A DNA stretch of 11,674 bases, from NCBI GenBank assembly GCA_028679775.1, contig JAJRAX010000045.1, positions 1-11,674 on the forward strand, read 5' to 3'. Every line of letters starts with the position of its first letter. Within the stretch, counting starts at the first letter, position 1. The DNA comes from Methanothrix sp. GTDB taxonomy: Archaea > Halobacteriota > Methanosarcinia > Methanotrichales > Methanotrichaceae. A program made the position numbers and the translations under genes. Positions 1 through 11,674 of the stretch are shown here, one piece after another. The notes beneath the pieces were generated by a model that was given only the letters and a program-made list of their open reading frames with translations, did not search any database and was not told the origin of the DNA.

Positions 1-16
1 ATTTTTTTTAAAGATC

Positions 17-21
17 GGAGG
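17..21 (+). promoter_or_regulatory. Shine-Dalgarno site of the chimeric ATPase/DUF4276 ORF
   Basis: GGAGG lies 4 bases before the ATG at 26. It is a strong archaeal ribosome binding site and fixes the start of the first ORF. Its preservation suggests that the translation signal of the original ATPase gene survived the rearrangement that made the chimera. Confidence 0.7.
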
Positions 22-25
22 AATC

Positions 26-577
26 ATGAGCTATAAAGATGATGATATTCGAACTATTGAGACGATTGGGCTTCACAATCTGTTGTCCTTTGGCCCCGAT
101 ACAGAGTCCATTTCCCTTAAAGCCTATGACATGTTCCATAATGCAGTTATATCTGCTGAAGATGGCGAATATCCGATACTTCTTGTAGACAGCGAAGATC
201 CGATTACCTCAGGCCCCTGGGATCATCTTAAGGTCCTAGATTGTTGGGACCGTCCAGTTGGGACGGAGGATGACCAGGCTCAGATGATGACAACTTGCAT
301 GGAAACCTGGATAATGGCAGATCATGAGGCACTCCGCAAGGTATTCGGTTCATGCCTCATGGAGAGGGCTCTCATCCCGACAGACAATTTGGAAGAACGA
401 TCGAGGCAAGAACTGCTGCAGGCGCTCAAATCTGCTACAAGAGACTGCGGAAAACGCAAAGGGTACGACAAAGGAAAGCGTTCATTCCAGATATTAGCAG
501 AACTGAACACCAGATCGCTTGAGGAGAACTTGCACTATTTTCGTCGTCTCAAGAAGACACTTGGCAGGCATCTGTGA
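26..577 (+). CDS. Chimeric remnant: ATPase N-terminus joined in frame to a DUF4276 (Toprim-like) C-terminus
   Basis: The 183-aa frame combines two families. Residues 8-32 (IETIGLHNLLSFGPDTESI and following) read like the first beta strands of the AAA/ABC ATPases that usually continue LNVLIGPNGSGKS, but no Walker A follows. From about residue 33 (AYDMF...) it matches DUF4276: LLVDSEDP at 52-59, then W..HL, W.RP, DDQAQMM, the CMETW hallmark at 91-95, a Y.KG..SF segment and a basic C-terminus. DUF4276 proteins normally begin with an acidic EGGG-type Toprim motif about 50 residues further upstream; it is absent. In many genomes an ATPase of this kind lies directly before DUF4276, as a defence-like ATPase/nuclease pair. 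I infer an internal deletion removing most of the ATPase and the start of DUF4276, with the frame kept. The family calls are from memory of consensus sequences. It may be translated but is probably not active as an ATPase or nuclease. Confidence 0.75.
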   Translation: MSYKDDDIRTIETIGLHNLLSFGPDTESISLKAYDMFHNAVISAEDGEYPILLVDSEDPITSGPWDHLKVLDCWDRPVGTEDDQAQMMTTCMETWIMADHEALRKVFGSCLMERALIPTDNLEERSRQELLQALKSATRDCGKRKGYDKGKRSFQILAELNTRSLEENLHYFRRLKKTLGRHL

Positions 578-601
578 GTGTTTTATTTGTATTGGCAGAA
601 C

Positions 602-703
602 GACTTTTGATTTTTTGGCGAATATCGTTTGCTGCGGTGTGTGCCGCCGCGGTTTCACTCTTATTTTCCGTGCCACATTGATGGGCATATGAAATCAAAA
701 GTC
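602..703. repeat. 12-bp inverted repeat with T-rich left arm, downstream of the chimera
   Basis: Positions 602-613 (GACTTTTGATTT) are the perfect reverse complement of 692-703, separated by 78 bases. The T-rich part at 605-616 could terminate transcription of the upstream ORF. The 578-734 stretch holds no convincing gene: the short frames there lack ribosome sites and family resemblance. Whether the repeat is structural or the ends of a small element cannot be told. No flanking target duplication is visible. Confidence 0.4.
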
Positions 704-730
704 TCGGGGCTGCACAACTGATCCTCATGC

Positions 731-746
731 AAAAAGCCTTAAATAT
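731..746 (+). promoter_or_regulatory. Archaeal promoter (BRE/TATA) of the metX locus
   Basis: TTAAATAT at 739-746, preceded by the A-rich AAAAAG at 731-736, fits an archaeal TATA box with a BRE. Transcription would start near 768-772, leaving about 25-30 bases of leader before the GGAG at 786-789 and the ATG at 797. Confidence 0.6.
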
Positions 747-750
747 GATA

Positions 751-779
751 ACAATCGTGAATACTGACTTCACAATTGT
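751..779. promoter_or_regulatory. Operator-like dyad over the presumed metX-locus transcription start
   Basis: ACAATCGTGAA (751-761) and TTCACAATTGT (769-779) form an 11-bp inverted repeat with one mismatch and a 7-bp spacer. The right half also contains the perfect palindrome CACAATTGTG (771-780). The dyad begins just after the TATA box and covers the predicted start site, the usual place for an archaeal repressor to block transcription. The regulator is not identifiable here; a methionine-responsive repressor is only a guess. Confidence 0.5.
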
Positions 780-796
780 GATTATGGAGACATGAC

Positions 797-877
797 ATGA
801 GCATGAAAGAAATCAGGCCCCGCACTCTGGTGATTCATGCCACCCAGGCGGGCCGGGGAGCCATTTCAGATTTATGA
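797..877 (+). CDS. 26-codon ORF overlapping metX; probable remnant of metY
   Basis: GGAG at 786-789 precedes ATG 797 by 7 bases, and the stop TGA overlaps the metX start as ATGA (874-877), typical of coupled operon genes. The first 17 residues ([17 protein letters not shown]) resemble the N-terminus of PLP-dependent O-acetylhomoserine sulfhydrylase (MetY), which usually reads ..TLA.HAGQ. before a ...RAVPIYQTTSY block. Here that block and the whole enzyme of about 430 residues are missing; after AGRGAISDL the frame ends. MetY commonly sits just before metX. I infer an in-frame internal deletion that kept the original start and the coupled stop. The alternative is a genuine leader peptide that couples translation into metX. 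The resemblance is short, so the MetY identity is tentative. Confidence 0.5.
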
Positions 878-2367
878 AGAGAGAATCCGTTGGTTTGACC
901 AAGATCCAATGCTATCGAATTGCAGAAGAGATTGCTCTGGAGCACGGCGGCAGGCTCTCTGCCGTAACCGTTGCTTACGAGACTTACGGCAAGTTAAACA
1001 ACGAACGGAGCAATGCCATACTGATCTGCCATGCCCTCTCCGGAGACGCCCATGCAGCAGGATGGCATAGGGACGATGAGAAGCGCGATGAAAAGCCGGG
1101 TTGGTGGGATATTGTTATCGGTCCTGGCAAGGCTCTGGATACGGACAAATTTTTTGTGATTTGCTCCAATGCCCTTGGCGGCTGCAAAGGCACCACCGGC
1201 CCATCCTCAATCAACCCCGACACCGGCAAGCCCTACGGTCTGGACTTTCCATTTATAAGCGTCAAGGACATGGTGAATGTCCAAAAGAAGCTCCTGGATC
1301 ATCTGGGAGTTAAAAAGCTGTTCGCAGTCATCGGCGGTTCATTTGGCGGGATGCAGGTCCTGCAATGGTGCGTATCCTATCCTGAGATGGTGCGAATGGC
1401 CGTGCCAATAGCAACCAGCGCCCGCTCCTCGCCCCAGCAAATTGCATTCAATGAGGTGGGGAGGAGAGCCATAACCTCAGATCCAGACTGGGATAACGGC
1501 AATTACTATGGCAGGGCGCAGCCTGCTCGCGGGCTGTCGCTGGCGAGAATGATCGGGCATATCACATATCTCTCGGACGAGTCCATGCAACAGAAATTCG
1601 GCAGGCGTCTGCAGGGCAAGACTGAGTTCAGCTTCGATCTGTCCTCTCTGGACTTTCAGGTGGAGAGCTATCTGAGCTACCACGGCAATGCTTTTGTGAA
1701 GAGATTTGATGCCAATTCATACCTTTACATCACCAAAGCCATCGACTACTTCGACCTGACTCATAAAGGCGCTCTATCTCTGGCAGAGGCCTTTAAGGAT
1801 GTCAAAGCCAAGCTCCTGGTCATATCCATAAGCTCGGACTGGCTCTATCCCCCCTACCAGAGTAAAGAGATCGCAGAAGCTCTGGGAGCCAATGACATCG
1901 ATGTCAAACACTGCGAGATAAAATCAAACTATGGCCATGATGCCTTCCTCCTGGAATCCGGGCAGATGAACTATTTGATTTCGAATTTCCTCTCCCGCAC
2001 GTCCGTTGGAGATGTGATGATCAGGGATGTTGTGACAGTTCGCCAGGGAAGAAGCGTGGAAGAGGCTGCAAGAATCATGATGACTGCGGGAGTGACTCAC
2101 CTCCCTGTGATCGATGAAGAAGGCAGGCTTGTGGGAATAGTCACCGCCTGGGATGTCTCAAAGGCCGTAGCCCTGAAGTACACACGCCTGGAGGAGATAA
2201 TGACCCGCAAGGTGGCCACATCGGCTCAGGATGACCCGATCGAGCGCGCCGCAAAACGCATGAACGAGCACAATATCTCCGCGCTGCCTGTTGTTGATGC
2301 AGATCAACGGGTTACGGGAATGATAACCAGCGATGGCGTCAGCCGGCTGGTCGGTGTATGCCGATGA
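874..2367 (+). CDS. metX: Homoserine O-acetyltransferase (MetX) with C-terminal CBS pair
   Basis: Acylates homoserine from an acyl-CoA, the first committed step of methionine synthesis, in the cytoplasm. Residues about 1-375 are an alpha/beta-hydrolase of the MetX family: CHALSGDAH near 52-60, the nucleophile elbow GGSFGGMQ with Ser156, the SSDWLYPP loop with Asp322, and YGHDAFL with His355 complete the catalytic triad. Residues about 378-432 and 440-494 form two CBS motifs (VMIRDVVTV..., [22 protein letters not shown]..., [12 protein letters not shown]), a module that often binds adenosyl ligands. Plain MetX is about 370-380 aa, so the 497-aa length reflects the fusion, which suggests allosteric control. 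The start ATG overlaps the previous stop, with GGGGAG at 855-860 as a possible ribosome site. Acetyl versus succinyl specificity cannot be fixed by eye. Confidence 0.93.
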
Positions 2368-8836: not shown

Positions 8837-9466
8837 TCATGTCATCCCTATCTGTTCTTTTATTGCTTTGATATCTGCCTGCACTTGCCTCATACTCATT
8901 CCGTGTCCTGGTTGGATGTCTTCTCTTAAGCCCTTTACTTCTTCCAAGACCTGAGGAATAACATCTGTGTTTGCCTTCATTTGTGGTATCATATCGGTGT
9001 TCTGGCGCACTGCCTTGATGTCGACCTTCATCTCTTTGATGTCACCCTTCATCTCTTTGATGTCACCCTTCATCTCTTTGATGTCACCCTTCATCTCTTT
9101 GATGTCAACTTTCATCTCTTTGAGGTCGTCCCTCATATCAAGCAGCAGTGGGATGGCCTTGTCCAGCTGGACGAATGAGCAGAGCATAGCTACCTCACTG
9201 GTTCGCCCAACGTAGCCGTCATAGGGCTCGGAGGTCACCTTGGTGACTTCGGCTAGTTCCGGCTTATCTTTCTCAACTGTCTTCAAGAAAGCTTTGATTC
9301 TGCTCTCATCTCCTTTCACCAGAGCTATTACCTCCTGGTGGTCTTCCTCATCCCAGTTGTAGGTGGAGAGGCCGGGCAATGCCATGTTCATAGCATGTTT
9401 AAGCAAAAACACACGATAGCCCACATCATGGACTTTGGGACCAATAATCTTGATCTTCAGCTTCAT
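8837..9466 (-). CDS. Acylphosphatase-like domain fused to a repetitive coiled coil
   Basis: 209 aa. Residues 1-90 fit an acylphosphatase fold: a strand KLKIKIIGP, then VHDVGYRVFLLKHAM with the catalytic-type Arg18, Asn37 in TYNW, then VIALVKGDESRIKAFLKTV and AEVTKVTSEPYDG. The canonical GRVQGVGFR loop is altered to GPKVHDVGYR and the usual GWVRN segment is degenerate, so activity is doubtful. After a linker, residues about 112-155 are five near-identical heptads of the DIKEMKG type, a charged coiled coil, and then two related MIPQMKANTD/VIPQVLEE blocks and a further helix. Ordinary acylphosphatases are about 90 aa. The C-terminal half suggests oligomerisation or partner binding. The start ATG 9464-9466 has no clear ribosome site. 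It is cytoplasmic by sequence and stands alone on this strand. Confidence 0.75.
   Translation of the reverse strand: MKLKIKIIGPKVHDVGYRVFLLKHAMNMALPGLSTYNWDEEDHQEVIALVKGDESRIKAFLKTVEKDKPELAEVTKVTSEPYDGYVGRTSEVAMLCSFVQLDKAIPLLLDMRDDLKEMKVDIKEMKGDIKEMKGDIKEMKGDIKEMKVDIKAVRQNTDMIPQMKANTDVIPQVLEEVKGLREDIQPGHGMSMRQVQADIKAIKEQIGMT
9027..9131. repeat. Five tandem 21-bp repeats encoding the coiled-coil heptads
   Basis: Units begin with TTCATCTCTTTGATGTC at 9027, 9048, 9069, 9090 and 9111. The middle three are identical and the outer ones vary at a few bases. One unit equals one heptad, so copy-number change lengthens the coiled coil without breaking the frame. No spacers, so not a CRISPR array. Confidence 0.95.
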
Positions 9467-9588: not shown

Positions 9589-9660
9589 GCGGCTGTGGTC
9601 CAGTGGTTATGACATAGGCTTCCCAAGCCTGTAACCCGGGTTCGAATCCCGGCAGCCGCA
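9589..9660 (+). tRNA. tRNA-Gly, anticodon CCC
   Basis: 72 nt. The acceptor GCGGCTG pairs with CAGCCGC, leaving discriminator A9660. The D arm is TGGTCCAGTGGTTATGACA. The anticodon stem TAGGC/GCCTG encloses the loop TTCCCAA with anticodon CCC, which reads GGG (Gly). The T arm CCGGGTTCGAATCCCGG has a 5-bp stem and the standard loop. CCA is not encoded. T4 at 9663-9666 follows as terminator. No intron. It lies between two minus-strand genes and has its own promoter. Confidence 0.97.
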
Positions 9661-9749
9661 CGTTTTCTTCTCAAACAAAATTGCAGGGAAATATCGTTCG
9701 CCTCGGTCGGACCTGACCTCTCGAAGTGTTCTGGGCACAGGTTAATGAT

Positions 9750-10696: not shown

Positions 10697-11674
10697 TTAT
10701 GCTGCCTTGGCTCCTGCAAACCTCTTGTAGATCTCCATCTCTGAAGCTGTTGGCTTGACCTTCTTGAGGGCCTCCTCGAAGTGCTTGGCCTCCAGCTTGT
10801 ACTCGCAGACCTGGGCCTCAACTTTCGCCTTTCCCTCTAGCACGCACTCCCTGATGGCCAGCATCACCGCCTCGCCTACGAGTGCGCCCAGATCGGCTCC
10901 AGAGTACTGGTCAGTTCTTTTGGCCAGCTCCTCGATCTTGACATCATCTGCCAGGGGCTTCTTGGCCGTGTGGATCTTCAGGATCTCCTGGCGGGCCTGC
11001 TCATCCGGCAGACCGATCTCAATCAGCCTGTCAAAGCGCCCGGGCCGGAGCAACGCTGAATCGATGATGTCCGGCCTGTTTGTTGCAGCGATGACCATGA
11101 CGCTGTTCAGGGATTCAAGACCATCAAGCTCTGTGAGGATCTGCGATATCACCCGCTCGGTTACATGCGAGTCGCTGGTCGATCCTCCCCTGGCCGGAGC
11201 AATGGAGTCTATCTCATCCAGGAATATCACCGAGGGCGCAGCCTGCCGGGCCTTCCTGAAGGTCTCACGCACAGCCTTCTCGGACTCGCCTACCCACTTG
11301 CTCAGGAACTCCGGGCCCTTGATGCTTATGAAGTTGGCCTGGCTTTCCGTTGCCACCGCCTTGGCCAGCATTGTCTTGCCGGTACCGGGCGGCCCGTAGA
11401 GCAGTATGCCCTTGGGGGCCTTGGCATCCATGTGAGCGAAGAGCTTGGCATATGTGAGCGGCCACTCCACAGACTCGACGAGCTGCTGCTTGACATCAGA
11501 GAGTCCGCCGATATCCTCCCAGTGAACATTGGGCGACTCGACCATGACCTCACGCATGGCAGACGGCTCCATCTCCCGGAGCGCCTCCAGGAAGTCGTCG
11601 TTGTTGACCTCTATCTTGTTGAGGATATCTGCTGGAATGGATTCGACTTCGAGGTCAAGCTCCGGCAGGATGCG
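10697..11674 (-). CDS. Cdc48/VAT-type AAA ATPase, C-terminal (D2) part, cut by the window edge
   Basis: Hexameric unfoldase that extracts or unfolds proteins for the proteasome. The coding frame runs through the right end of the window; 325 residues are visible, the earlier N-domain and D1 lie outside. Residues 1-45 (ending [20 protein letters not shown]) are the classic D1-D2 linker. Then come [10 protein letters not shown], Walker A GPPGTGKT at 94-101, the pore-loop SKWVGESEK, Walker B VIFLDEID at 149-156, the second region of homology [20 protein letters not shown] with Arg211 and Arg214 as arginine fingers, and the [12 protein letters not shown] sensor-2 region. The family N-D1-D2 protein is about 730-760 aa. 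The stop is TAA at 10697-10699. The C-terminal tail [10 protein letters not shown] lacks an obvious HbYX proteasome-docking motif. An internal ATG at 11572 is not a real start. Confidence 0.95.

Follow-up and report, generated by a model that had tools for sequence, protein, structure and literature searches.

The stretch of DNA analysed here, the window, is the entire 11,674-nucleotide contig JAJRAX010000045.1 (C260) of a metagenome-assembled genome (MAG) of the methanogen Methanothrix sp. (GCA_028679775.1; 2,342,195 bases in 410 contigs, 83.26% complete and 2.67% contaminated), and its first gene seems to be the scar of a deletion in HEC-01, a Hma-embedded candidate defence system of the PADLOC collection that pairs an ATPase (HEC-01A) with a DUF4276 protein (HEC-01B). 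The open reading frame (ORF) occupies positions 26-577 of the forward strand, starts with an ATG at 26, is uninterrupted and encodes a protein of 183 residues (P0001). A ribosome-binding site, read from the sequence as GGAGG, lies on the same strand at 17-21, four nucleotides before the start codon. The first 32 codons (26-121) correspond to the beginning of a HEC-01A-type ATPase, a protein of the AAA/ABC type, and stop short of its Walker A motif. The remainder (122-577) is DUF4276 sequence: it takes up at residue 50 of the intact protein and runs through the stop codon, covering the C-terminal three quarters. The first-pass annotation, made from the sequence alone, had described the gene in much the same terms, and its division into two halves is borne out by PADLOC and Pfam matches, by DNA matches and by synteny.

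The DUF4276 half is recognised by two profiles. The PADLOC model of HEC-01B aligns with residues 32-181 (E-value 1.4e-45; profile positions 49-198 of 202) and the Pfam family DUF4276 (PF14103) with residues 46-179 (E-value 1.1e-7; positions 54-191 of 192), the latter with a score of 32.7 bits that lies above the curated cut-off of 30.2 even though the N-terminal quarter is gone. At E-values up to 0.001, NCBIfam gave no match for P0001 or for an intact DUF4276 protein, and the PDB offered no convincing sequence relative of DUF4276 (one row, E-value 0.98). The ATPase half matches HEC-01A weakly (residues 9-34; E-value 0.009, profile positions 3-28 of 393), but this assignment is backed by the position of the fragment behind gltX and by pairwise matches to the ATPase of another genome of the genus, G020 (ATPase P0122), which aligns with residues 4-37 at the protein level (E-value 6.6e-5) and, through the start region of its gene, with window positions 11-125 at the DNA level (71.6%, E-value 6.8e-11). 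Residues 9-32 also agree with ATPase N-termini, sharing up to 19 of 24 residues (median 13) with the 120 homologues examined out of 8,000.

Intact relatives show what the locus may have looked like. Among the 99 genomes searched, seven, including the MAG itself, match the ORF. G020 carries gltX (glutamate-tRNA ligase), a 401-residue ATPase, a 200-residue DUF4276 protein and a convergent prenyltransferase gene, in that order, and G006, also of the same genus, has the identical ATPase-DUF4276-prenyltransferase order behind gltX; gltX, prenyltransferase, metX and metY were identified by family-model matches. In the MAG of the window, gltX lies on another contig, C344, where it directly precedes the ATPase start codon and is 87.7% identical to gltX of G006. 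The G020 pair matches HEC-01A (E-value 2.9e-180) and HEC-01B (E-value 1.3e-66) over nearly the full length, and the G006 DUF4276 protein matches HEC-01B with an E-value of 1.5e-67, its ATPase being known by gene order. Judged from these profiles, the intact relative at the corresponding locus behind gltX is HEC-01, and the earlier proposal that the ORF derives by deletion from an ATPase-DUF4276 pair is supported. HEC-01B was detected in 13 genomes when 237 of the class were scanned (E-values up to 1e-10); in all 12 others the match begins at model position 1-5, whereas that of the MAG runs from 49 to 199 of 202. Two of these 12 copies are irregular in other ways, as that of G144 ends at model position 153 and that of G130 has an internal TGA.

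The two halves meet within positions 119-125 (AAAGCCT), because the left-hand DNA match to G020 ends at 125 and the right-hand match, to the DUF4276 gene, begins at 119 (119-573); by codons, the joint falls between K32 and A33, that is, between 121 and 122. Pairwise BLAST and the counting of codons served to locate it, as a five-sequence DNA alignment misplaced the ATPase fragment. Positions adjacent in the window are separated by 1,250 nucleotides in G020, which agrees with the predicted deletion of 1.2-1.5 kb. The native ATPase and DUF4276 genes lie in different frames (offset 2 in both G020 and G006) and the loss merges them; since any such loss would leave a single open frame with a chance of about one in three, the open frame is less striking than the first-pass annotation had supposed. 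AAAGCCT flanks the lost segment on both sides in three of the six relatives compared (G038, G044 and G048); G040 has it on a single side, and G020 and G006 lack it on both. By eye, however, a simple exchange at this word in the three relatives with both copies would leave one base more than the window has, and with this spacing an origin of the joint by microhomology is no more than possible. The two flanks share no word longer than 7 nucleotides in any of the six relatives, and window positions 1-900 contain no direct repeat across 121|122.

A functional HEC-01 would require full HEC-01A and HEC-01B genes, of which the window retains an ATPase match over residues 9-34 alone and a HEC-01B match that starts at model position 49. 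As had been noted from the letters, Walker A and the later ATPase motifs are absent from the 183-residue translation, and so is the N-terminal Toprim segment with its glutamate (E9), the acidic motif VDSED being kept. An OLD-type Toprim nuclease would carry both the N-terminal glutamate and the acidic motif that follows strand 3; on the basis of the fold and of the Toprim motifs, we take these to be the catalytic residues. In the predicted structure of the 183-residue product, 23 of the first 26 residues have a predicted local distance difference test score (pLDDT) below 50, and the lost strands are not replaced.

There is no sign that the joined architecture defines a separate family. When 5.8 billion proteins were searched, 190 matches emerged from 257 candidates, and among the 120 matches listed the fusion occurs in the window's own entry only. 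Over residues 9-32, the best ungapped match among the other 119 shares 7 of 24 residues, a measure on which proteins with shorter annotated starts score low. A single-gene family of 183 residues was therefore rejected, as no other match listed carries the ATPase N-terminus. P0092, P0115 and P0116, which cover 90-98% of the query, proved to be ordinary full-length DUF4276 proteins whose N-termini are aligned by chance. A viral or phage origin was likewise discarded, since a scan of viral contigs with P0001 returned two pattern matches and nothing related. No second copy of the joint was present in the 98 other genomes searched. Separately, P0045 (139 residues, on a contig of 109,763 nucleotides) is a DUF4276 protein that lacks the N-terminal Toprim part and may be a second, independently decayed copy of HEC-01B.

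These observations are best explained, with a probability of roughly two in three, by an allele of a HEC-01-type candidate defence operon that was recently disabled by deletion, in a mixture of Methanothrix strains. A short-homology or end-joining event would have removed about 1.25 kb, with one breakpoint within the ATPase gene and the other within the DUF4276 gene. The ATPase would lack Walker A and all motifs beyond it, and the nuclease would be without its first strand with the glutamate, its first helix, its second strand and the start of its second helix. Although the product would keep VDSED, it should neither bind ATP, be regulated nor cleave, and for this reason the locus would be disarmed. 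The 183-residue product most likely has no function and the system is most likely disabled. Thus, of the two outcomes that the first-pass annotation had envisaged, a disarmed costly system is favoured, whereas a small protein that still works has no positive evidence on its side. In this reading the scar is ordinary decay of a known candidate system.

Selection on the retained part appears as strong as in intact relatives, in keeping with a recent event. All 30 invariant columns of the alignment (A4) in this part are kept in the window, and over 150 codons its ratio of nonsynonymous to synonymous substitution rates (dN/dS) is 0.26 to G020, 0.12 to G006, 0.11 to G038 and 0.16 to G044, compared with 0.11-0.26 among intact relatives; these are rough values, as one pair out of ten reached saturation and dS is greater than 1 in several cases. 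When the window, G020 and G006 were compared, unique changes (amino-acid/silent) numbered 16/16, 8/6 and 13/23, respectively. No relaxed constraint is visible, so that either the event is recent or the constraint acts on another allele.

The joint has to be weighed together with the way in which the contig was assembled. On the forward strand, window positions 1-121 coincide exactly with the 121 bases that close C344, whose last 122 bases do not match; because this identity stops before 122, the joint sits at the end of an assembly overlap that ends within the joint interval. At its other end, window positions 11554-11674 are the reverse complement of an end of contig C374, again over exactly 121 bases. 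The start of C344 has no exact overlap, and its positions 1-447 (L033) are 96.9% identical to positions 1-447 of C358 (L077) over 447 nucleotides, a sign of mixed strains in the MAG. Since two of the three contig ends tested share exactly 121 bases, the graph would have had a word length of 121. A toy graph reproduced the observed ends if a second sequence diverges after base 121 without rejoining; rejoining at 122 would make the contig start at 122. It follows that the reads would have held another continuation at the joint. Thus, there is probably a fork in the assembly graph at this point, with a second continuation in the reads that would most simply be the intact operon.

Several of these facts weigh against a deletion allele. 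The joint is known from assembled contigs alone and, because it sits at a contig-overlap boundary, a fixed genomic deletion is not proven. The toy graph excludes a simple bubble of intact versus deleted sequence just after the joint. No sequence of the presumed intact sister allele was encountered, the other DUF4276 matches listed being at most 81% identical (metX has a 98% identical entry in the protein database, P0244), and the MAG contains no HEC-01A-like ATPase beyond the window fragment. Finally, the joint is followed by a remnant of metY and by metX, not by the prenyltransferase found in G020 and G006, which in this MAG is located on contig C151.

The most serious competitor of the deletion allele is an assembly or library chimera, in which the organism has an intact operon and the joint arose from chimeric reads or from a wrong path through the graph. 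It fits the position of the joint at the boundary of the 121-nucleotide overlap, the fragmentation and apparent strain mixing of the MAG, the single occurrence of the joint in the proteins and genomes searched and the unfamiliar gene order beyond it. Nevertheless, a de Bruijn contig beginning with the 121-mer in common would normally depend on reads that support longer words spanning the joint, the flanks lack any repeat longer than 7 nucleotides in the six relatives, and a dominant intact path should have been assembled. A chimera is thus considered a real but clearly less probable explanation than the deletion allele, holding about a quarter of the weight in our judgement.

A functional fusion, for example a small regulator or a protein that pairs with intact HEC-01 subunits to dominant-negative effect, is improbable. 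The preserved frame, start codon and ribosome site, the complete set of invariant columns and the ordinary dN/dS would suit such a protein, but a recent event explains the constraint equally well, no homologue with the fused architecture was found, the N-terminus is predicted with low confidence and does not stand in for the lost strands, and the MAG yielded no intact partner. Programmed or recurrent deletion, a form of phase variation that would switch a costly defence off in part of the population, seems slightly less probable still: the apparent fork suggests two coexisting states and a 7-nucleotide word flanks the lost segment in half of the relatives, but the joint has no long repeat, no second instance was found, and visual inspection of the ORFs in the window and on C344, part of which were run against family models, showed no recombinase. 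The most elaborate combination, a standing polymorphism of intact HEC-01 and a frame-preserving deletion whose 183-residue product, with most of the C-terminal Toprim part retained, would restrain the intact nuclease in a dominant-negative manner, is no more credible than phase variation.

Beyond the ORF, the window continues with an apparent metY remnant and metX. A 26-codon ORF (797-874, forward strand), about 220 bases downstream of the ORF at 26-577, begins like metY (O-acetylhomoserine sulfhydrylase) over 52 nucleotides (75% identity, E-value 0.001-0.002) and ends at the start of an intact metX, a homoserine O-acetyltransferase with CBS domains (874-2367, forward strand). The metY of G020 is longer by 1,227 nucleotides, a multiple of three, which would make this a separate apparent in-frame loss. 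Two negative results count against a metY remnant: tblastn of the 26-residue ORF against the compared loci recovered itself and one chance match, and tblastn of G020 metY against the window found nothing. Because the protein searches missed it in both directions, the assignment rests on the 52-nucleotide match and on position. An intact metY, 90% identical to that of G020, is present on contig C85 of the MAG with no metX after it, and metX matches (E-values up to 1e-100) occur in the MAG on C260 and C148 only. On C148 (L065, 2214-2687), only the C-terminal third of a metY stands before the second metX copy. Altogether, metY looks damaged in two of its three places in the MAG, and the pattern looks like reciprocal loss after duplication.

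Farther along, positions 8837-9466 encode an acylphosphatase-domain protein with a repeat tail, within which an array at 9015-9127 comprises 5.4 near-identical repeats of 21 nucleotides (94% matches) that encode KEMKGDI heptads. A tRNA-Gly gene (CCC; 9589-9661, forward strand) lies between this acylphosphatase-like gene and hisF.

The analysis recognises a broken copy of HEC-01 in a methanogen. If the deletion is real and polymorphic, the locus would capture a candidate archaeal defence system in the course of its loss. It also cautions that, where two genes seem fused at the end of a contig, the assembly graph may have forked. In the available portion of a 2026 archaeal survey (PMC12988326), several HECs, including HEC-06, are reported to have shown activity and HEC-01 is not named, and no mechanism of HEC-01 was found in the portions available of that survey and of PMC12724379, PMC8565338, PMC9252829 and PMC10568477. 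DUF4276 is not mentioned in the literature library searched.

Among known systems, the predicted structure of an intact DUF4276 relative is closest to OLD, PARIS or Gabija, which account for the 13 best among the matches listed. This model, built for the intact relative rather than for the window copy, supports an OLD-type Toprim nuclease fold. Thus, the likeness to known defence modules proposed in the first-pass annotation stands as far as the OLD/PARIS fold is concerned, whereas the label AbiL appears too loose, as the G020 ATPase matches AbiLi with an E-value of 8.9e-27 (and Old with 1.3e-16), far from its match to HEC-01A. PARIS (AriA/AriB, for which a class 4 has been proposed) differs in both components: the same ATPase reaches 3.9e-37 for AriA compared with 2.9e-180 for HEC-01A, and the G020 DUF4276 protein matches HEC-01B models only (all four PADLOC families hit, E-values up to 0.001), with no AriB among them. 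Compared with OLD-family Toprim nucleases in general, PARIS included, the window copy has neither active site complete. With HEC-01 itself, both halves of the ORF match, the ATPase half weakly, and gene order, direction and the neighbouring gltX are as in the intact copies of G020 and G006; the difference is that the window copy is a single ORF from which almost all of the ATPase and the 48-49 N-terminal residues of HEC-01B are missing.
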